Source: a virus. Taken from it: a stretch of 35,839 bases of DNA. Made by a program: the position numbers and the translations under genes. The number at the start of each line of letters is the position of its first letter. Positions within the stretch are counted from its first letter, which is position 1. The notes under the pieces are model-generated. The model was not told the DNA's origin. It saw nothing but the letters and a program-made list of their open reading frames with translations, and did not search any database. This document shows, one piece after another, positions 8,527 through 33,504 of the stretch. The stretch covers positions 1 through 35,839 of the IMG/VR virus record IMGVR_UViG_3300044679_000059. One strand, given 5' to 3'.

Positions 8527-8601
8527 TGGCTGCATGACTAGGATTCGAACCTAGGAATGGTGGGATCAAAGCCCGCTGCCTTACCTCTTGGCGACCATGC
8601 A
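8527..8601 (-). tRNA. tRNA-Gln(UUG)
   Basis: A full cloverleaf reads on the minus strand: seven-pair acceptor (TGCATGG with TCATGCA, last pair G-U), D-arm GCC/GGC, anticodon loop CTTTGAT giving anticodon TTG with U33, T-arm CTAGG/CCTAG with loop TTCGAAT, discriminator G and an encoded CCA (8527-8529). The anticodon stem has one C-A mismatch. It would read CAA, which is frequent in the Gln-rich portal and scaffold genes. It lies upstream of the lysozyme on the same strand. Confidence 0.93.
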
Positions 8602-9392: not shown

Positions 9393-10963
9393 TGAATGTG
9401 GAAGCATATCAAGATCTTATTCCGCGTACAGAACATGAAGCTATGGCTTTACGTGCTCGGCTATGTGGTTCTCTGTTACTTTTTACTCAGTTTTTTTACA
9501 AGCTAAGAACTGGGCGTAATTTTGATTTAAGTTTGCCCGTTTCCCGTGAAAGTCATTACATTACCGTATGCCGTGAATTAACTCATGTTGCTGAAGGGAA
9601 AACTAAGCGCTTGTTAATTAATATTCCGCCGCGTTATGGAAAAACTGAGCTTTTGATACATTTTGTCGCGTGGACTTTGGCTAAAAATCCTTCTAATAAT
9701 TATATTTATATAAGTTATTCCCATTCTTTGGCTAAAACCCAAACTCAAACCATTCGTTCTATTCTTCAATTGCCCCTTTATAAAAAAATATTTAAAGTCG
9801 AATTATCACCAGATAGTACTGCAAAAGGTAATTTTAAAACAACAGCAGGTGGCAATATATATGCTGCTGGTGCTGGGGGTACTATTACTGGTTTTGGTTC
9901 TGGTATACATGGTGGTACCGACATTGGCGGCGCTTTAATAATAGATGACATTCACAAACCGGACCAAGTAACTAGTGATGTAATAAGGGCAAATATTAAT
10001 GAATGGTGGTTTAACACATGCATGTCTCGCGTTAATAATCCAAACACGCCTATTGTTGGCATTGGCCAACGCCTTCATGAAGATGATTTATTTGCTAACT
10101 TTGCAAAGAACAATGAATGGAAGAGTCTTATTATTCCCGCATTAGATATTCACAATAATGCTTTACATCCAGGATTACATACGACTGAAAAGCTTTTGGA
10201 AATGAAAGAAGCTTCACCTTATAACTTTGCTGCTCAATATCAGCAAAATCCCATCCCAGCAGGTGGTTCCGTCTTTAAGCCGGAATGGTTCGAGCTAATG
10301 GATGAAGAGCCAAATATTTTAGTGACATTTATCACAGCTGATACAGCTGAAACTGATAAGACCTACAATGATGCTACTGTTTTTAGTTTCTGGGGTCTTT
10401 ATAAAATTGTTAATTTTGGACGAGAAACCGATGCTTATGCACTTCACTGGATAGATTGTTATGAAACTCGCATAGAACCAAAAGATTTACATGATGAGTT
10501 CATGGCATTTTATCAAGGATGCATGATGCATAAAGTAGCACCCTCATTGGCTGCGATTGAAAAGAAATCTACGGGAGTTACATTGCTCTCTGTTTTAAAA
10601 GAAATGAGGGGAATTAGAATTTTAGAAGTTGAGCGTAATGCTAATTCTCTAAATAAAGCCGCTCGATTTTATAATATCCAAGGATTCGTTGCTAAGAAGT
10701 GCATTAGTTTGCCGCGTATAGGACGACATACTGTGAACTGCCTAGAACATTGTCGCAAAATAACAGGCAACAACTCTCATCGCTTTGATGATATTGCCGA
10801 TACGCTCTACGACGCAATCAAGATTGCTCTAATCGATAAAATACTTATCAACTACATCCCAACTGAACAAGCGCATAACAAAGTCTTGGAGACGATGGCG
10901 CAAAAGTTCAATTACCAACAGCAAATTAGGAGTGCACGCTATGGGAATTCCAGCATACGATGA
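9392..10963 (+). CDS. Terminase large subunit
   Basis: A 523-aa packaging motor and headful nuclease. The ATPase domain has a Walker A-type PPRYGKTE (79-86) and Walker B LIIDD (182-186) followed by the coupling region. The C-terminal RNase H-like nuclease shows the expected acidic residues: Asp317 (TADTA), Glu390 (AAIEKKS) and Asp466/467 (RFDDIADTLYDA). Length is normal for this family. It works with TerS at the portal. The ATG overlaps the TerS stop and its end overlaps the portal start region. Confidence 0.96.
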   Translation: MNVEAYQDLIPRTEHEAMALRARLCGSLLLFTQFFYKLRTGRNFDLSLPVSRESHYITVCRELTHVAEGKTKRLLINIPPRYGKTELLIHFVAWTLAKNPSNNYIYISYSHSLAKTQTQTIRSILQLPLYKKIFKVELSPDSTAKGNFKTTAGGNIYAAGAGGTITGFGSGIHGGTDIGGALIIDDIHKPDQVTSDVIRANINEWWFNTCMSRVNNPNTPIVGIGQRLHEDDLFANFAKNNEWKSLIIPALDIHNNALHPGLHTTEKLLEMKEASPYNFAAQYQQNPIPAGGSVFKPEWFELMDEEPNILVTFITADTAETDKTYNDATVFSFWGLYKIVNFGRETDAYALHWIDCYETRIEPKDLHDEFMAFYQGCMMHKVAPSLAAIEKKSTGVTLLSVLKEMRGIRILEVERNANSLNKAARFYNIQGFVAKKCISLPRIGRHTVNCLEHCRKITGNNSHRFDDIADTLYDAIKIALIDKILINYIPTEQAHNKVLETMAQKFNYQQQIRSARYGNSSIR

Positions 10964-13115
10964 ATCAGATGAATTAAAAGAATTCAAAGAAAATATCAAA
11001 CGAACCTATTTATATTGGCGTCCTAACAGTGAACGCTATTACCGCTTTCGCAAAATGATTTTTGATACCACAATGTCTCCAGAAGATATTGCCGTCATGG
11101 AAGAACTCCAGAAGCCATCAATAGAATGCAATATTCTAGAGTCTTATATTAGCCGACCTCGTGGCGAATTTAGTAAACAAGAACCTTCAATTGAAATCAC
11201 CGCTAAACCCAACAAAAATCCCAGTCCTCGGCTCATTAAATTTATAGAAGGGCATATACGTTATTTGATTGAGTCTTCAAATGCAAAATATGCAACTGCT
11301 TTTAATATATTTACCGATTTGCTAACGGGCGGTTTTAGCGTAGCAAAAATTACAACTGATTATGAGAACCCCATGTCATTCGATCGCGTCATTGAATTTA
11401 AAAAGGCATTTGATGCGACTATGTGCGGTTTCGATCCACTCGCGATGACTCCCTCAAAATATGATGGCCGTTTTTGTTTTGAGCTTTTCCCCAAGAGCAA
11501 GAAAGAAGCAGAAGAGATGGGCATTAATACAACTAATCTCGCTTTCTCCAAAGAAATGGGCGGTTTTAATTGGTCTTACAAAAGTGAGCAAGAAAAGATT
11601 GTACTGATTGCAGAATATTATCACAAGAAAGTGAAGCGTAAAAAGATTGTAAAGGTTGCGCCGATTCCCACCCTTAATATACCTGAACAAGAGATGTTGG
11701 CTAGTCAATATAAACAACTCATAGAGCGCTGGAATCAAGAAGGCATCATTGAACAACCGCCCGTTATCATTGAAGAACGAATGACTGAAATCCCAGAAAT
11801 TTGGCAATACCTGATTGTAGAAAATGAAATCCTCAAGGAAACAAAGACGGATTTAACTTATTTCCCGCTCGTTTACTTTGACGGGAACAGTGCCATTATA
11901 CGGGACGATACTAACGGCTCTAGTTATCAATATACTCGCCCACTGGTTTATAATGCGTTGGGTGTTCAAAAACTCATGAACTTTTCTATTCAATCTTTAG
12001 CCAATGAATTGGAGAATTTGGTTCAACATAAATTCATGGCCTCTAAAGAAAGTATACCAGACCAATATGTAGATGCGTGGATGAATGTACAAAAGCCAAA
12101 CACACTCATCTACAATGAATTCTATGAAAACAATGTTGATGCAAGATTAACGCCACCACGTGAAATTGCACGGCCCCCCATCCCTCAAGAAATTATGGGA
12201 ACGATTAGCCTTTGCGGTCAATTGAGTCAACAAGTATTAGGCAATTATGATGCGGCTCTCGCGAAGTTACCATCTAATCAAACTAGTGGTGTAGCAATAC
12301 AAGAAACTATTTCGCTTTCCAATGATAATGTGATGCCTTGTATTGTTAATTACATGCAATCATTAACGCATTGCGGTTATATATTTGCTGATAGGATTCC
12401 TAAATGTCATCCCACGCCCTCAACACTTCCTGTTATTGATGCTTCAGGCCAGAAAGCTTTTATTAAAGTCAACGAAGAACAAAATGCCATGCAAGGATTT
12501 GGTCAGCAACAGCAAGAAACTATTAATCTTTATCATAGCAGTACTCATTTAGATATTTGTATTAAAGCTGGCCTTAATTTCAAAATGCAAAAATCGAGAA
12601 CGTTGCAAGAAATAACTTCTCTTATGCAAGCTTCTCCTATATTTGCAGAATTTATGAATGCGAAAGCGTTACCACAATTAGTGGATAATCTTGAAATTAG
12701 AAATCAAGAAGAACTAAAAGAACTTGCAGACCAATTCATGCAAGAGATGCAACAACGAATGCAGCAAGCGCAGCAACAACAAGGACAACAAGGTAATCCA
12801 AATCAAGCACGCGAACAATTAGAAATGGCAAAATTACAATTAGCAGCGCAAGAGATGCAACAAAAAGATAAACAATTTGATGTAAGCACTCACCTTAAAG
12901 TTGCTCAAATGGAAAATGAACGCAAGACTGATGATGAACGCTTGACAAACGAACGCATTAAGTTATTATCCGACATAAAGCTTGAACATGAAAACAGTCA
13001 AGTTCAAATGCATAAGGCATCTACAGAACGCTACGCAAAGAATGTAGATTTAGCAATTAAACATTTGGACAGTGAACGCAAGCATCAACAATCTTCAGAA
13101 AGCCTAATGGAGTAA
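10941..13115 (+). CDS. Portal protein, P22 gp1-type
   Basis: A 724-aa portal subunit, almost the length of P22 gp1 (725 aa). It forms the dodecameric ring at the packaging vertex. I chose ATG 10941 because AGGAG (10928-10932) is spaced eight bases away; an upstream GTG at 10932 overlaps that same site. Recognisable P22-type features are the N-terminal YWRPNSERYYRF region, the IECNILESYISRPRGE segment, and a long helical, Gln-rich barrel region near the C-terminus (about 590-650). Many Gln codons are CAA, matching the phage tRNA-Gln. Confidence 0.94.
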   Translation: MGIPAYDESDELKEFKENIKRTYLYWRPNSERYYRFRKMIFDTTMSPEDIAVMEELQKPSIECNILESYISRPRGEFSKQEPSIEITAKPNKNPSPRLIKFIEGHIRYLIESSNAKYATAFNIFTDLLTGGFSVAKITTDYENPMSFDRVIEFKKAFDATMCGFDPLAMTPSKYDGRFCFELFPKSKKEAEEMGINTTNLAFSKEMGGFNWSYKSEQEKIVLIAEYYHKKVKRKKIVKVAPIPTLNIPEQEMLASQYKQLIERWNQEGIIEQPPVIIEERMTEIPEIWQYLIVENEILKETKTDLTYFPLVYFDGNSAIIRDDTNGSSYQYTRPLVYNALGVQKLMNFSIQSLANELENLVQHKFMASKESIPDQYVDAWMNVQKPNTLIYNEFYENNVDARLTPPREIARPPIPQEIMGTISLCGQLSQQVLGNYDAALAKLPSNQTSGVAIQETISLSNDNVMPCIVNYMQSLTHCGYIFADRIPKCHPTPSTLPVIDASGQKAFIKVNEEQNAMQGFGQQQQETINLYHSSTHLDICIKAGLNFKMQKSRTLQEITSLMQASPIFAEFMNAKALPQLVDNLEIRNQEELKELADQFMQEMQQRMQQAQQQQGQQGNPNQAREQLEMAKLQLAAQEMQQKDKQFDVSTHLKVAQMENERKTDDERLTNERIKLLSDIKLEHENSQVQMHKASTERYAKNVDLAIKHLDSERKHQQSSESLME

Positions 13116-13327: not shown

Positions 13328-13564
13328 ATGGCACAAGCCGAAAGAAAGTTAGTAAAAGAACCCAACAAAATGAGCGCAATGCCAAAAGATGTAGGTCATG
13401 ACCATCTTAAGATGCAACATGCTCACCATAAGAAAATGGCAAAACATCATATGGATGGTGCTAAACACCATGAAGAAATGCGTAAACATATGGAACATGC
13501 ACTGGAAAAACATAAAGTGCATAAAGAACATAAAAAAGAACATCATAAACGCAATCATGATTAA
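13328..13564 (+). CDS. Histidine/lysine-rich protein, 78 aa
   Basis: Not assigned to a family. It contains 17 His and a similar number of Lys, in repeated K-H, H-H and E-H pairs over residues 24-77, with several Met, a composition suited to metal or nucleic acid binding. AAGGAG lies upstream. It sits between portal and scaffold, so a virion or assembly role is possible. Confidence 0.7.
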   Translation: MAQAERKLVKEPNKMSAMPKDVGHDHLKMQHAHHKKMAKHHMDGAKHHEEMRKHMEHALEKHKVHKEHKKEHHKRNHD

Positions 13565-13829: not shown

Positions 13830-14552
13830 ATGGATAATGAAACAATTGATTTGGCACAGGTAGAAGCAGATGCAATGCCCGAACCAGAGAAAATGATACC
13901 TGCTTCTAAAGTTACTGAAATGATTCGAAGTGAACGTTTTAAAGCTTTAGAAAAGGGAAGAAGGGAAGCAGCTTTTTTGACACAGCAGCAACAACAGTCG
14001 TCAGCGCCACCAGCAGAACAAGCTTCTTCAAATGGTGCCAATATGTCACCGGATGATGTGCGTGGCCTGTTTGCTGAAGAAACTAGGCGCATGCAAGAAC
14101 ATCTTTACCAACAACAGCAAGAGCTTGCTCAGCAACAAAAAATGCAACAAATTGTTAAAGAATTTGAGAGCAAATTAGAGACGGGTAAAGAAAAATATGC
14201 AGATTTTGATGAAATAGTAAATAAAAAGGCATTGCCAAGCATTGCATATATGGCTCAACTGGCGAATGAAGTTGATAATACAGCCGATGTTATGTATGAA
14301 GTGATGAAAAATCCTTCAAAAATAACCTCTATTCTCGGACTTGTAGATCCTAAACTTCCGCATGAAGAGCAATTTTTAGCACATAGGGCAATGAAAAATT
14401 TATCTGAATCTATTAAATCAAATGAAAAAGCGCTAGGTCAACGAGCACCTTCTCAACCATTATCACATTTAAAACCTTCTAATGTATCGAGTGATAATGG
14501 ATCGCCGTCCTCGGTCAGTGACTTTAGAAGAATGTCTTGGTTACGTGGATAA
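13830..14552 (+). CDS. Scaffolding protein
   Basis: A 240-aa acidic-then-basic helical protein directly before the coat gene, the standard place for a scaffold. Long helices with poly-Gln runs (about 50-110), a Pro/Ser-rich linker and a short basic C-terminus (RRMSWLRG) match scaffold design, where the basic tail binds coat protein. It would direct procapsid assembly and leave before maturation. AGAGG lies upstream of ATG 13830. Confidence 0.78.
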   Translation: MDNETIDLAQVEADAMPEPEKMIPASKVTEMIRSERFKALEKGRREAAFLTQQQQQSSAPPAEQASSNGANMSPDDVRGLFAEETRRMQEHLYQQQQELAQQQKMQQIVKEFESKLETGKEKYADFDEIVNKKALPSIAYMAQLANEVDNTADVMYEVMKNPSKITSILGLVDPKLPHEEQFLAHRAMKNLSESIKSNEKALGQRAPSQPLSHLKPSNVSSDNGSPSSVSDFRRMSWLRG

Positions 14553-14631: not shown

Positions 14632-16128
14632 ATGGCAAGTTTCCCAAACAATATTTTACAACAAGTTCAAACTTATCAAATGGCAGGCTTAGCGTTCCTT
14701 GAGAATTCTAGCTGCATGGTTTACACATCGAATAATAAATTTCGCAACTTTGACCAAATGATTGCGAACTTAGGTTAACTAATGGCCTCGCCTGTCAGTA
14801 ATGATAGGTTGTTACTGGGTGAATTCAGGGAACATCTTTAAAAGACAATCCTGAACCAAGCCGCAAAAAAGCGGAAGGTGCAACGACTATCCCGTAAGGG
14901 AGTACACTCAAGTGAGTGGAAGCGCCCAGCCCCTGCAAAGGGTGAAGATATAGTCTAATCTGCCAAGTGATTGGTAGCTGCCGAAAGGCGGGTTAAGTCT
15001 AACGAACTTAATCGAATATGAATGGATACAGTTACTTTTGACTTACCACCACGTTTCACAACAGGTAATAGCCTTGTTGTTACTTTCCAATCCGCACAAC
15101 AACGGGTTGCTAATTTGACGGTTCAAGGGCAAGCCAATACTTCCTTTACTTTCACCAACCAACAATTCATTTTTAATGTACGTGAGTACATGGACAGGTT
15201 TGGTGAAGCAGCTATTAAACAGTTAGGCTCTGTTATTGAAAGGGATGTTTCAAAAGTGGCCGAGACTAGCACCTTCCGTTATTTCGGTACTCCTTCGGCT
15301 CCAATTACTACATTCGGCCAAATGGCGCAAATGATTGCAAACTATAAAAGCTTTGGTGTGGCAGACAATAAAATAAAAGTCTATTTACCGATGACTGCCG
15401 TCCCTCAAATTGTTAACAGTGGTTTAAATCAGTTCGTCGTAGACCGTAACGAAGAGATGGCTTTTAGTTGGATGTTGGGTAAATGGCAAGGTGTTGACTA
15501 TTATCAATCTAACTTATTGCCTACGCACATATCTGGCGATACCGGAAATCTGCAACAAACCCTGACAGTTATCAGTACTAATGACCCCACAGGCCAAAAC
15601 ATTACACAGATTACCTTTAGCGGCGCGTCAGCAAGTGATGTTAATGCGGTGAAAGCTGGTGATTTGTTTACTTTTCAAGATGGGGTTACGGGCCAACCTA
15701 ACATGCGGTTCTTAACTTTCATTGGTTTTAACTTAACACCTTTGCAAGTTCAATTTGCGGCTGCTGCTGATGCGGCTTCTGACGGTAGTGGCAATGTCAC
15801 GATTACCTTGTTGCAGCCTTTAGTATCTGCGGCAGGTCAAAATCAGAATATTAATAATAACGTAGCTGCTGGCATGCAAGTTCTTGGTATACAAAATCAT
15901 GCTTGCGGCTTAGTCGTTGGCGGTGATGCGCTGTTCTTGGGAATGCCACGTTTACCAGACCAAACACCGTTCCCAACATCCAACCATGTTGATGAAGAGA
16001 CAGGTGTTTCTATTCGCCAATACTTCGGAACCTTATTTGGTCAAAACCAACAAGGGATGGTATATGACGCTATTTGGGGCAAAACATTAGTGCCTGAATA
16101 TGCAATGCGTTTGATTTTCCCAGCTTAA
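14632..16128 (+). CDS. Major capsid protein (P22 gp5-type), interrupted by a group I intron
   Basis: Exon 1 is 14632-14775 (48 codons, MASFPNNILQQ... IANLG) and exon 2 is 15025-16128 (367 codons, DTVTFDLPPRF...). Joining them gives 415 aa, close to P22 coat (430 aa), and restores the ANLG-DTVTFDLPPRF junction that is continuous in related phage coats. Exon 2 carries TNQQFIFNVREY and the long internal insertion domain, and ends MRLIFPA. The raw sequence has a TAA directly after codon 48, and the ATG at 15022 has no ribosome binding site, so exon 2 is not a separate gene. AGAGGTG precedes ATG 14632. The coat forms the icosahedral shell with the upstream scaffold. Confidence 0.93.
14776..15024 (+). 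ncRNA. Group I intron in the capsid gene, 249 nt
   Basis: Conserved group I core elements are visible in order. P1 forms between exon AGGT and intron GCCT, with the required U-G at the splice site. The P4/J4-5 segment AATCCTGAACCAAGCCGC is at 14847-14864, with the CCGC/GCGG stem (P5). GGAAGGTGCA is at 14873-14882. P7 is GACTA (14885-14889) with TAGTC (14951-14955, in AAGATATAGTC). Helices CCC-GTAA-GGG (14891-14900), CACTC/GAGTG (14905-14909, 14914-14918) and a P9-type GCC-GAAA-GGC (14980-14989) follow. The last base is G (15024). No homing endonuclease is encoded, so it is a small, immobile or trans-mobilised, probably self-splicing intron. Confidence 0.95.
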
Positions 16129-16149: not shown

Positions 16150-16950
16150 ATGAGTATTCCTATATTTCCAACTACATATGATCCCATTATCAATAATGCG
16201 TTTTTTCTCTATGCATATGGGATGAATATAACTCCCGTTATATCAACTTTGACGGCATCTATCTCTGATGGATTAATGCGTGATAGCACTAATACCGATG
16301 ATATTGCTGTAAACACTAATGGCGCAGGCACTATTTTAAATCTGGGTATTAATGGATTGAATGGATTGGATACTGGGACAGCAACTGCTAATACGTTTTA
16401 TCAAGTATTTGCTATCGCAGATCCAACTGGCTACCAACCATCAGGTTTCATTGCCAGTGTTAATGCCGCCCCACTTTTACCCTTTCAATATGGGTTATAT
16501 AGACGCATTGGTTGGTTGTTATTAAATGCAACTCCAACCATTGAGTATTTCTATCAAGTAGGATTGGATAATACTCGATTTTATCAATATACCCCGGTTG
16601 CTACTAGTTCCGGGATAACCCCTGCTGATACAGCATTTCATGTAGTGGATATTAATTATTTTTGTCCTCCACAAGTATGCAAAACATTTATCAATGTGAG
16701 TTGTACTAGCACCGTAGCAAGTGATGTTGCGCTTTCTCTACAAAGTGGAAATTCAACTAATACAAATGGCTCTTTAGCACCCGTTATTATGAACATCAAC
16801 AATATAAGTGGAAGCACGGATTTTTATTTTCCGCCTGCTGTGCTGATTTGTGGTGTTGTCTCCTCAAATGCAGCTATTCAATATGCAGTAAATGCTTTTT
16901 CAGGCCTAACATTGCATTTTCAAGGCTCAGCTTTTGAAGATTATATTTAA
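16150..16950 (+). CDS. Capsid-associated or decoration-like protein A, 266 aa
   Basis: Not assigned to a known family. It aligns over much of its length with the next gene: P-T-T-Y/F-DPI at the N-terminus, D-G-L-x-RDSTNTDDI (about 40-50), ILNLGINGLNGLD, TGYQPSGFI and LYRRIGW. The last 100 residues are beta-rich and differ between the two. Position after the coat gene and before the gp4 gene suggests a head decoration, head fibre or minor capsid protein. AAGAGGAA precedes ATG 16150. Confidence 0.75.
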   Translation: MSIPIFPTTYDPIINNAFFLYAYGMNITPVISTLTASISDGLMRDSTNTDDIAVNTNGAGTILNLGINGLNGLDTGTATANTFYQVFAIADPTGYQPSGFIASVNAAPLLPFQYGLYRRIGWLLLNATPTIEYFYQVGLDNTRFYQYTPVATSSGITPADTAFHVVDINYFCPPQVCKTFINVSCTSTVASDVALSLQSGNSTNTNGSLAPVIMNINNISGSTDFYFPPAVLICGVVSSNAAIQYAVNAFSGLTLHFQGSAFEDYI

Positions 16951-16983: not shown

Positions 16984-17799
16984 ATGACAGTAGGTCCAGT
17001 GTTTCCAACTACATTCGATCCCATCGTAAACGGAGCGAATTTATACATTAATGGAATGAGTTTAGGTGTTACAGATTTTGTAAATACGCTTGATATTTTC
17101 GATGGTTTATGCAGAGACAGTACCAATACCGATGATATTGTCGTAAGCACAACTGAGGGCTTTACTATTTTAAATTTGGGTATCAATGGAGCCAATGGAT
17201 TAGATAGCGGCACATTTAATACTGGATTTTATACTATTTTTGCCATTGGAGATGCTACTGGTTATCAACCATCTGCATACATTGGGAGTCTGAATTTGGA
17301 TACACCAGTGATGCCCTATGGCTACGATCTCTATAGAAGAATTGGTTATATCAAAGCAGAAGCCGGAAATATTACTCCTTTTAGCCAGTATGGGAATTCA
17401 AACGACCGTATTTATAATTATGTAACTGCAATTCAAGTTCTTACAAACGGAGCAGCTACTACTTGGACGGACGTCGATTTATCAGCAGCTATTCCAAATG
17501 TAAATAATAGTACAACGCCAATTAATCCTGACATCCCTGTTTTCATGTACTTGCAAGGAACCCCTAGCTCTGTGGGTGATTTGATGTCAGTAAGACCACC
17601 CAGTAGTTCTTCTTTTACTGGATTAATCCCCATAACTTATCAAGCACCTATAGCAGGCGTTAATATTTCTATGACGTCAGAGATGTTAATAGGAAGTGCA
17701 ATATTTAGCGGAGTTACGAAACCAGCAGTTCAATATTACGGTAGTTCATCATCCGATTTATGGAATATATTCATAATAGGATATAGAGACTCTTTGTAA
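16984..17799 (+). CDS. Capsid-associated or decoration-like protein B, 271 aa
   Basis: Tandem paralogue of the previous gene, with the same RDSTNTDDI, ILNLGINGANGLD, TGYQPSAYIG and LYRRIGYI segments and a different C-terminal domain. Two copies with divergent ends would allow surface variation. It overlaps the gp4 gene start by one base (TAATGG). Function inferred from position only. Confidence 0.75.
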   Translation: MTVGPVFPTTFDPIVNGANLYINGMSLGVTDFVNTLDIFDGLCRDSTNTDDIVVSTTEGFTILNLGINGANGLDSGTFNTGFYTIFAIGDATGYQPSAYIGSLNLDTPVMPYGYDLYRRIGYIKAEAGNITPFSQYGNSNDRIYNYVTAIQVLTNGAATTWTDVDLSAAIPNVNNSTTPINPDIPVFMYLQGTPSSVGDLMSVRPPSSSSFTGLIPITYQAPIAGVNISMTSEMLIGSAIFSGVTKPAVQYYGSSSSDLWNIFIIGYRDSL

Positions 17800-31196: not shown

Positions 31197-32060
31197 TTAT
31201 CCTTCCTCTTCATTTTCAGCTATTAATACCTGTTGTTGATTCTTAATGGCTCCTTCCTCTGCCCACTGTCTAGTAGCTTCATATTTTTCTAATGGAAAAT
31301 CTTCCAATGAAGTTATGGGGGGATAAAAGCTTTTAAGACGTTCCATTAACTTATCTCTGTATTCTAGAGGACATAAATTAAGCAAGTCGTTAAGTTCAAT
31401 AGATTGATCCAAAGATATCTTTTCATAATCTGTTTGCAATATCTTTTTTTCTGGTAGATGGTCGTCTATTTTCCGTACATCTTTCTCACTATTTATTACA
31501 ATTTCATCTACTTCATCGGGGTTATAACCACAGTTACGGGAAACATCGGGGAATAATTGCCTGAATAATTTGCTAAGCGCGCGATTATAGCACATCACAT
31601 CGGGGTATTTGATCCATGCATTTTGATAAATACCTGCACGTTGTGCATCCTCTATGCTAAAACTGACTGTCCATGTATCACCATTATCAGCACGTTTACC
31701 ATGCAAAATGCAGATAGTATCATCAGATTTGGAGTCTTTTTGAATAGAGTGCCCTTTAAGTCTAATAAGCATCGCCATTGTTTCGGCATACATTCCTATA
31801 CGACCCTGCACACAATAAAAATATTTGAAAGATTGGTAAGGATCTATTGCATGTGCCTTAGCAGCTAATAAAATAGCGAGTACATCCTGATTGCTATATC
31901 TACAATAAGATGGAACATCAGAAAAGGTAGCGCAAAATTTTACTAAACTATCTGCCTGTTCTGGGTAAATAGAACCAATTTGAACAGATATTAATTGAAT
32001 ATCTAAAGTTGTTTTTTGTGCTTGTTGTAAATAATTTTTATTTTGATATGGCATTGTCAT
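31197..32060 (-). CDS. RecT-like annealing protein
   Basis: A 287-aa protein with the RecT-family pattern: an N-terminal helical region with AILLAAKAHAIDPYQSFKYFYCVQGRIGM (about 65-93), the GDTWTVSFSIEDAQRAGI strand-helix (about 127-145) and the family signature WIKYPDVMCYNRALSKLFRQLFPDV (about 149-173). These proteins bind single-stranded DNA and anneal complementary strands; the partner RecE-like nuclease lies upstream. GGAAGGAGGAG precedes the ATG, which overlaps the stop of the upstream gene (ATGA). The C-terminus is acidic, as usual. Confidence 0.82.
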   Translation of the reverse strand: MTMPYQNKNYLQQAQKTTLDIQLISVQIGSIYPEQADSLVKFCATFSDVPSYCRYSNQDVLAILLAAKAHAIDPYQSFKYFYCVQGRIGMYAETMAMLIRLKGHSIQKDSKSDDTICILHGKRADNGDTWTVSFSIEDAQRAGIYQNAWIKYPDVMCYNRALSKLFRQLFPDVSRNCGYNPDEVDEIVINSEKDVRKIDDHLPEKKILQTDYEKISLDQSIELNDLLNLCPLEYRDKLMERLKSFYPPITSLEDFPLEKYEATRQWAEEGAIKNQQQVLIAENEEEG

Positions 32061-32616: not shown

Positions 32617-33504
32617 TTAGAATGGTGCTGAAATCATCTCAGCGGTGGCATTCATAGATTGATTGATTGCCCAAGCTGGTAAACCAATCGATCGAATCCC
32701 TTCGGGGTACCCATTCCATCGTTTATTTCTGAGGCATTCTTTATATATACCTATTCCTTGCTTATATTTTTCTCTTCCTATTTCTATACTTTCATTATCT
32801 AAAACATAAACCGCAGTTAAGTAAGGCGGCAACTTTTCGACTGCCAAGATTACAAACTCGCGCTTTGTCGCTTGAGGGCAAATATGCTCAAGAGCATCTA
32901 AAGCAAGTGCCGCTTGAATATGATAACCATATTTATAAATGCTCTTTTTAAAATCTTCCTCACTTGCGTTTAATGTGGTTTTCAAATCCAATACCATAAA
33001 ATCATTAAACAAATCAGGTCTTGACTTTAACAACACATCATAATTTTTATGCTTAAAATAAAGAGATGTTTCTATATGGGTATTTTCTTTATGCGACATA
33101 ATATTATTATAATCTCTATTAGAAAATACAGCATCTACCATAGACTGTACTTGCTCCATCTCATTCGCATTCAAATAGGTTTTGCCTTGATTAATATTCA
33201 AAATATTATTGAATTCTTCCTTGCCTTTTTTAGTTCTTCGGTCTATCTTTTCCAAATGAGCAGGCCATGTATAGAACCTATTGTTGAATGCGTAAGGTTC
33301 TAATACTTTTGTATGCAATGCTTGGCCTATTACTAAACATCTACTTTCTTTTGAATCATGTAAATGCTTTGAAGGATTGAGATACTCGTACCAATATTTT
33401 TTAGGGCATTCTAGCAAAAGTTTAATAGCACTAGCGCTTAAGCCTTCGCTTGCATGATATTCATCTATTGGTAAATCTTTAATTATTCCATTTAATGCTG
33501 TCAT
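32617..33504 (-). CDS. RecE-like exonuclease (PD-(D/E)XK)
   Basis: A 295-aa protein of the RecE-type phage exonuclease group. The N-terminus has the typical L-P-x-x-x-Y-H motif with SASAIKLLLECPKKYWYEYL and GQALHTKVLEP (His64). Catalytic motif residues visible are Glu145 (ETSLYF), Asp164 (SRPDLF), Asp173 and Lys175 (LDLKTT) and Gln197 (YHIQAALALD). It would chew 5' strands of double-stranded DNA to give single strands for the RecT-like protein. It forms the recombination module with the RecT-like gene, spaced by two small genes. Full-length RecE is far longer; phage versions are commonly about 300 aa. Confidence 0.87.
   Translation of the reverse strand: MTALNGIIKDLPIDEYHASEGLSASAIKLLLECPKKYWYEYLNPSKHLHDSKESRCLVIGQALHTKVLEPYAFNNRFYTWPAHLEKIDRRTKKGKEEFNNILNINQGKTYLNANEMEQVQSMVDAVFSNRDYNNIMSHKENTHIETSLYFKHKNYDVLLKSRPDLFNDFMVLDLKTTLNASEEDFKKSIYKYGYHIQAALALDALEHICPQATKREFVILAVEKLPPYLTAVYVLDNESIEIGREKYKQGIGIYKECLRNKRWNGYPEGIRSIGLPAWAINQSMNATAEMISAPF

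Follow-up and report, generated by a model that had tools for sequence, protein, structure and literature searches.

The stretch of DNA analysed here (IMGVR_UViG_3300044679_000059; hereafter the window) is a 35.8-kb viral metagenome contig from IMG/VR, the database in which its relatives were also sought. It carries the coat gene of a P22-like phage, and the sequence indicates that this gene is split by a small group I intron. In the open reading frame (ORF) listing the locus appears as two frames flanking the intron, one of 48 codons (14632-14778) and one of 368 codons (15022-16128). The parts of the gene are as follows.

14632..14775, + strand: coat gene exon 1, carrying codons 1-48 (MASFPNN...IANLG), with 50-55% identity to the continuous N-termini of seven intronless relatives
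14776..15024, + strand: predicted group I intron of IA type, 249 nt, without an ORF; matches RF00028 and covaries across eight coat-gene introns
15022..15024, + strand: last three intron bases, ATG, a false start codon for gene callers, at which the ORF listing begins its second frame
15025..16128, + strand: coat gene exon 2, of 367 codons and a stop, matching PHROG 283

The exact junction and the coat protein

A preliminary description of this DNA had placed a 249-nt group I intron after coat codon 48, at 14776-15024, and had proposed a covariance-model search with Rfam RF00028 as a check. The coordinates proved correct: RF00028 has a single match in the whole contig, the coat-gene intron, at 14766-14977 (82.1 bits, E 1.4e-19), well above the curated gathering score of 50. 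Our own intron model, R1, gave 296.7 bits for this intron, on which it had been trained. The base before the 5' splice site is a U (14775) and the last intron base is a G (15024), both as previously described, and all of the core motifs named earlier are present, AATCCTGAACCAAGCC and GGAAGGTGCA in P4-P6 and GACTA/TAGTC in P7.

The joined exons read NLG|DTV, and in an alignment with intronless relatives, another of the checks that had been suggested, the exons line up without a gap and the junction lies inside an ungapped block. A register shifted by one base (U14776/G15025) was rejected: it would place a Tyr at a position that is Asp, Ser or Glu in 86 intronless relatives, and because of this conflict with protein conservation the register 14775/15024 is supported. 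We compared 91 coat loci and found that 87 gave a single uninterrupted match, while 2 were cut by contig ends and the interrupted ones were the window and one other locus, L031. Rfam intron matches were absent from 12 relatives that come from bacterial genome assemblies, including one Legionella maceachernii isolate.

Profile comparisons also supported the joining of the two exons. On its own, exon 2 scores 62.2 bits (E 1.1e-16) against PHROG 283 (major head protein) over profile positions 43-382, whereas the joined protein of 415 residues reaches 72.3 bits over positions 3-382 of 385, a gain of about 10 bits. Exon 1 supplies profile positions 3-42 and retains the conserved residues of the coat family. 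The frame ANLG-DTV thus yields a real coat protein, as the preliminary description had proposed. Among PDB entries, the family profile extends to P22 gene 5 (E 1.6e-4), and the terminase, P22-like portal, scaffold and coat genes stand in their usual order, so that both the full-length profile match and the portal and scaffold neighbours identify a P22-like coat protein of the HK97 fold. The first 48 residues would be missed by gene finders, as had been anticipated, since callers would start at 15022; an error of this kind exists in phage C72C1, compared below.

Two neighbouring genes were identified by their profiles.

10932..13115, + strand: P22-like portal gene (PF16510, E 1.2e-76)
13830..14552, + strand: scaffolding protein gene, directly upstream of the coat gene (PHROG 8865, E 1.5e-7)

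Between them lies an ORF of 78 residues that is extremely rich in His, Lys and Met (13328-13564, +). Downstream of the coat gene, two adjacent ORFs (16150-16950 and 16984-17799, +) have alike N-termini (FPTTxDPIxN...) and are possibly duplicated decoration or fibre proteins. Elsewhere in the window, we observed a protein of 192 aa (458-1036, +) with a C-terminal CsrA domain (PF02599, E 3.9e-23) and an N-terminal extension of 117 residues, a translational regulator domain in a phage; a tRNA gene upstream of the terminase genes (8530-8601, -; Rfam 49.3 bits); and a PD-(D/E)XK nuclease (32617-33504, -; DUF3799, E 2e-28), which likely forms a recombination pair with the weak RecT-like match beside it at 31197-32060.

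Ribozyme structure and predicted splicing

The helices P1, P2, P3, P4, P5, P6, P6a, P7 (a pseudoknot), P7.1, P7.2, P8, P9, P9.1 and P9.2 could be assigned in the intron, and the following were placed on the sequence.

14772..14788, + strand: P1, 5' exon AGGU|UA with UGGCCU as internal guide; the 5' splice site lies at the U14775-G wobble
14790..14809, + strand: P2 hairpin, GCCUGUCA/UGAUAGGU with a GUAA loop; compensatory change in 6 of 8 pairs
14815..14929, + strand: P3 (CUGGGUG/CGCCCAG), enclosing P4, P5, P6, P6a, the 5' strand of P7, P7.1 and P7.2
14885..14955, + strand: P7 pseudoknot, GACUA/UAGUC, the guanosine-binding helix, invariant in eight introns
14960..15012, + strand: P9, P9.1 and P9.2 hairpins, ahead of the 3' splice site

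Over the window intron and seven homologues, 92.6% of the cells pair, a percentage that is favoured by the structure having been drawn on one of the eight sequences; compensatory changes are the stronger evidence. Changes on both sides were found in 33 base pairs, compared with 17.1 in shuffles, and when the partners were slid by 1-3 columns the pairing fell under 46%. P3, P4, P6, P7, P7.1 and P7.2 are paired in 100% of the cells, with compensatory change in P3, P4 and P6. In P7.1 and P7.2, which lie between P7 and P3, 3 of 4 and 5 of 5 pairs, respectively, change on both sides. The guide and exon target of P1 covary among the homologous introns, all eight of which have the U before the intron and the terminal G. 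In addition, the intron folds more stably than 200 dinucleotide shuffles (z -3.2). P7.1 and P7.2 together are the mark of group I subgroup IA, and because both are present the window intron is predicted to belong to this subgroup, as an IA2-like member. IA2 introns make up over half of the viral group I introns (PMC11835236).

Taken together, these data suggest, with a probability that we put at roughly 94%, that the coat gene of this P22-like phage is split by a group I intron and that the joined mRNA gives the coat protein. The late transcript would fold into the ribozyme; an external guanosine bound at P7 would attack after U14775, which P1 keeps in a U-G wobble; exon 1 would then attack after G15024, and the ligated mRNA would encode the coat protein of 415 residues. 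We infer that splicing takes place in the infected cell and does so efficiently. Coat synthesis should need this reaction, and the production of particles would depend on RNA splicing, as the preliminary description had argued.

Several points weigh against this interpretation. By inspection, P10, the pairing of the guide with the 3' exon, would have about two base pairs only; P10 is dispensable in some group I introns. The metagenome contig may be incomplete, and an endonuclease may lie elsewhere in the genome. Moreover, the intron is under structural constraint, and part of the gap between intron and exon identity described below is expected without any transfer. The support, all of it at the level of sequence, consists of the anatomy of the intron, its covarying structure, the exact junction, the intronless homologues and the homologous introns in related coat genes.

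Alternatively, the intron could be dead, or exon 2 could be translated alone from the ATG at 15022 into a coat of 368 residues lacking the N-terminal arm. We consider this very unlikely. All of the core helices are intact and show compensatory changes, and exon 1 keeps the conserved residues of the family. There is no Shine-Dalgarno-like sequence within 25 bases before 15022 and no sense-strand promoter-like site between the exons. Furthermore, the ATG is not conserved: related coat introns terminate in ATG, TTG, TCG or AAG. An assembly artefact or chimera, which might be suspected of a single metagenome contig, is scarcely credible, as independent contigs hold homologous introns at the same codon (L273 and L296) and in the same gene.

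Related introns in capsid genes

We used core-pattern searches of IMG/VR and scanned the neighbourhoods of the matches with the coat-family profile; junctions were set by the U before the intron, the G at its end and the restored coat frame. Among the matches listed, the introns most similar to that of the window occur in P22-like coat genes, in which five sites could be defined.

Site A, after Ala45: L031
Site B, after Gly48: the window, L273 and L296 (L296 has a very distant coat and is split at the corresponding codon, ATG|QTI)
Site C, in SSY-QQL, splitting its Tyr codon: L213 and L146
Site D, downstream of site C by 11 nt: L220
Site E, close to codon 23: L125

These eight introns measure 245-284 nt and all of them are without an endonuclease ORF. 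The seven relatives are thus homologous to the window intron and resemble it in lacking an ORF and in residing in P22-like coats, while they differ in being spread over five sites, with guides that differ accordingly. P1 has been remade for each site (for example GAGCU/GGCUC at C, AGGU/GCCU at B and, on our own reading of the pairing, GCUU/GAGC at D). A coat intron in L131 is likely; the site count covers introns with an exactly defined junction and leaves it out. On this GC-rich contig (L131 636-1151, +), an HNH endonuclease frame lies directly upstream of the intron and a P22-like coat gene, which could represent an endonuclease-associated relative.

A maximum-likelihood tree of 75 introns separated the group of six at sites B, C and D from all others with an SH-aLRT value of 97.4 and a bootstrap of 95; for the trio at site B, the split had values of 98.1 and 85. 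L125 and L031 branched outside the clade of six, and monophyly of all eight coat introns was therefore not supported; a FastTree result suggesting that L125 falls inside was built on ragged rows and was not used. Because these two introns fall outside the clade, the invasion of P22-like coats probably happened more than once. Within the site-B trio, the introns of L273 and L296 are 84.2% and 80.8% identical to the window intron, compared with 56.4% and 45.2% for their exons. This gap suggests horizontal spread without a resident endonuclease, and horizontal transfer of the intron is the simplest explanation for a junction shared by such divergent coats.

The preliminary description had also considered a coat-gene site unusual, and this view did not stand. 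Introns in capsid genes have been published (PMC3706429, PMC7886860), and about a quarter of the closely related introns listed here lie in capsid genes. To assign host genes, the flanking exons were grouped and every larger group was represented by one member in a scan against PHROGs; a single-linkage grouping at E 1e-6 had merged unrelated genes and was replaced by a stricter one. Among the matches listed, with near-duplicates removed, 31 of 127 introns were in major head genes of six PHROG families, 33 were in DNA polymerase genes and 41 had no host-gene assignment. As the search pattern was derived from these introns, the fractions describe this subfamily only, and among the matches listed major capsid genes host this type of intron about as often as DNA polymerase genes do. 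The accompanying statement that phage introns are better known elsewhere agrees with several of the deposited-phage matches inspected, which lie in or beside DNA polymerase, helicase or ribonucleotide reductase genes. The polymerase and terminase hosts taken from annotations in a first intron BLAST were misleading for metagenome contigs, although they fit several of the deposited-phage matches. Some loci carry more than one such intron: in L264 (4734-5006 and 5536-5819), L306, L251, L255 and L258, two are separated by about 800 nt within what seems to be a single major head gene (PHROG 267), and L137 and L162 hold several near a PHROG 9953 head gene.

Intron movement and known systems

How the intron moves is separate from the claim that it splices, and the hypotheses below are compatible with that claim. 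As previously described, the intron holds no homing endonuclease: its largest ORF does not exceed 37 aa. In addition, domain searches of the window gave no match to HNH, HNH_3, GIY-YIG, T5orf172 or LAGLIDADG_3, and Pfam scans covering most of the larger ORFs detected no homing endonuclease. Two routes have been described for ORF-less introns, trans-acting endonucleases and reverse splicing where four to six bases are complementary (PMC3984707). We infer that the intron was acquired horizontally, by means of an endonuclease acting in trans or since lost, reverse splicing being less likely.

DNA homing, its endonuclease being encoded elsewhere or having been lost, as in the trans homing of ORF-less introns of T4-like phages, is the route that we favour, with some reserve. 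First, intron identity is high at the same codon junction of very divergent coat genes. Second, the conserved GDT codons at site B (44 of 86 empty sites) would provide a stable DNA target. Third, trans-acting endonucleases for ORF-less phage introns have been reviewed (PMC3984707), endonuclease genes cluster near capsid genes (PMC10448857), and HNH genes are present on the L125 and L131 contigs. However, at the thresholds used, no endonuclease domain was found in the window, L273, L296, L213, L146, L220 or L031, several of which are fragmentary records.

Reverse splicing would let the excised intron enter the coat mRNA at a guide match of 4-6 nt, followed by reverse transcription and recombination, and could relocate it within the gene. 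Six related introns at three coat sites in one clade, guides fitted to each site and the lack of an endonuclease ORF in any coat intron are consistent with this route, as is the common target UUAGGU of L125 and the window at different positions. Nevertheless, we think it unlikely. Pfam identified no reverse transcriptase in the window; the sites pair within 9 and 11 nt, which a nearby endonuclease cut would explain as well; and the shared UUAGGU may be chance, L125 lying outside the clade. More doubtful still is a broader scenario in which one ORF-less IA lineage has specialised in capsid genes, moving within and across divergent coats without its own endonuclease and refitting its guide each time, plausibly by reverse splicing into the abundant coat mRNA.

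Introns of this kind were already known in shell genes; what is new is that the closest relatives among the matches listed also lie in P22-like coat genes, at several sites. In these phages, the gene of the most abundant virion protein has been invaded at several sites by small endonuclease-free ribozymes. This multi-site lineage is the part worth following, as it offers a natural series, one intron lineage in one gene with varied sites and guides, for studying the movement of ORF-less group I introns. Split and mis-annotated coat genes in viral metagenomes would also affect marker-gene trees and structure surveys.

Among known systems, the mycobacteriophage LittleE likewise has a probable group I intron in the major capsid gene of a tailed phage, with a U before it and a G at its end, and its splicing was demonstrated by RT-PCR and protein sequencing (PMC3706429). 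That intron differs in being about 820 nt long with a putative homing endonuclease ORF and belongs to an unrelated phage group. A capsid intron of Tuc2009 is cited in the same paper. Comparative genomics has also uncovered group I introns in the major capsid genes of crAss-like phages of the Delta and Zeta groups (PMC7886860), but in some of these genomes one gene has several introns, recognised by endonuclease domains, whereas the window has one ORF-less intron. The introns of T4 td, nrdB and nrdD and other phage IA2 introns share with it an IA-type fold with P7.1 and P7.2 and a U-G pair in P1. Unlike the window intron, those of the T4 type reside in genes of nucleotide metabolism and have, or once had, endonuclease genes. 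Finally, in phage C72C1 (OQ984150), a related intron (85.7% identity over 116 nt) splits a major head gene of another capsid family (PHROG 1328). The annotation gives this head gene (L359 1111-2312) as two CDS separated by antisense hypothetical ORFs, and the gap contains a group I intron with a score of 81.8 bits.
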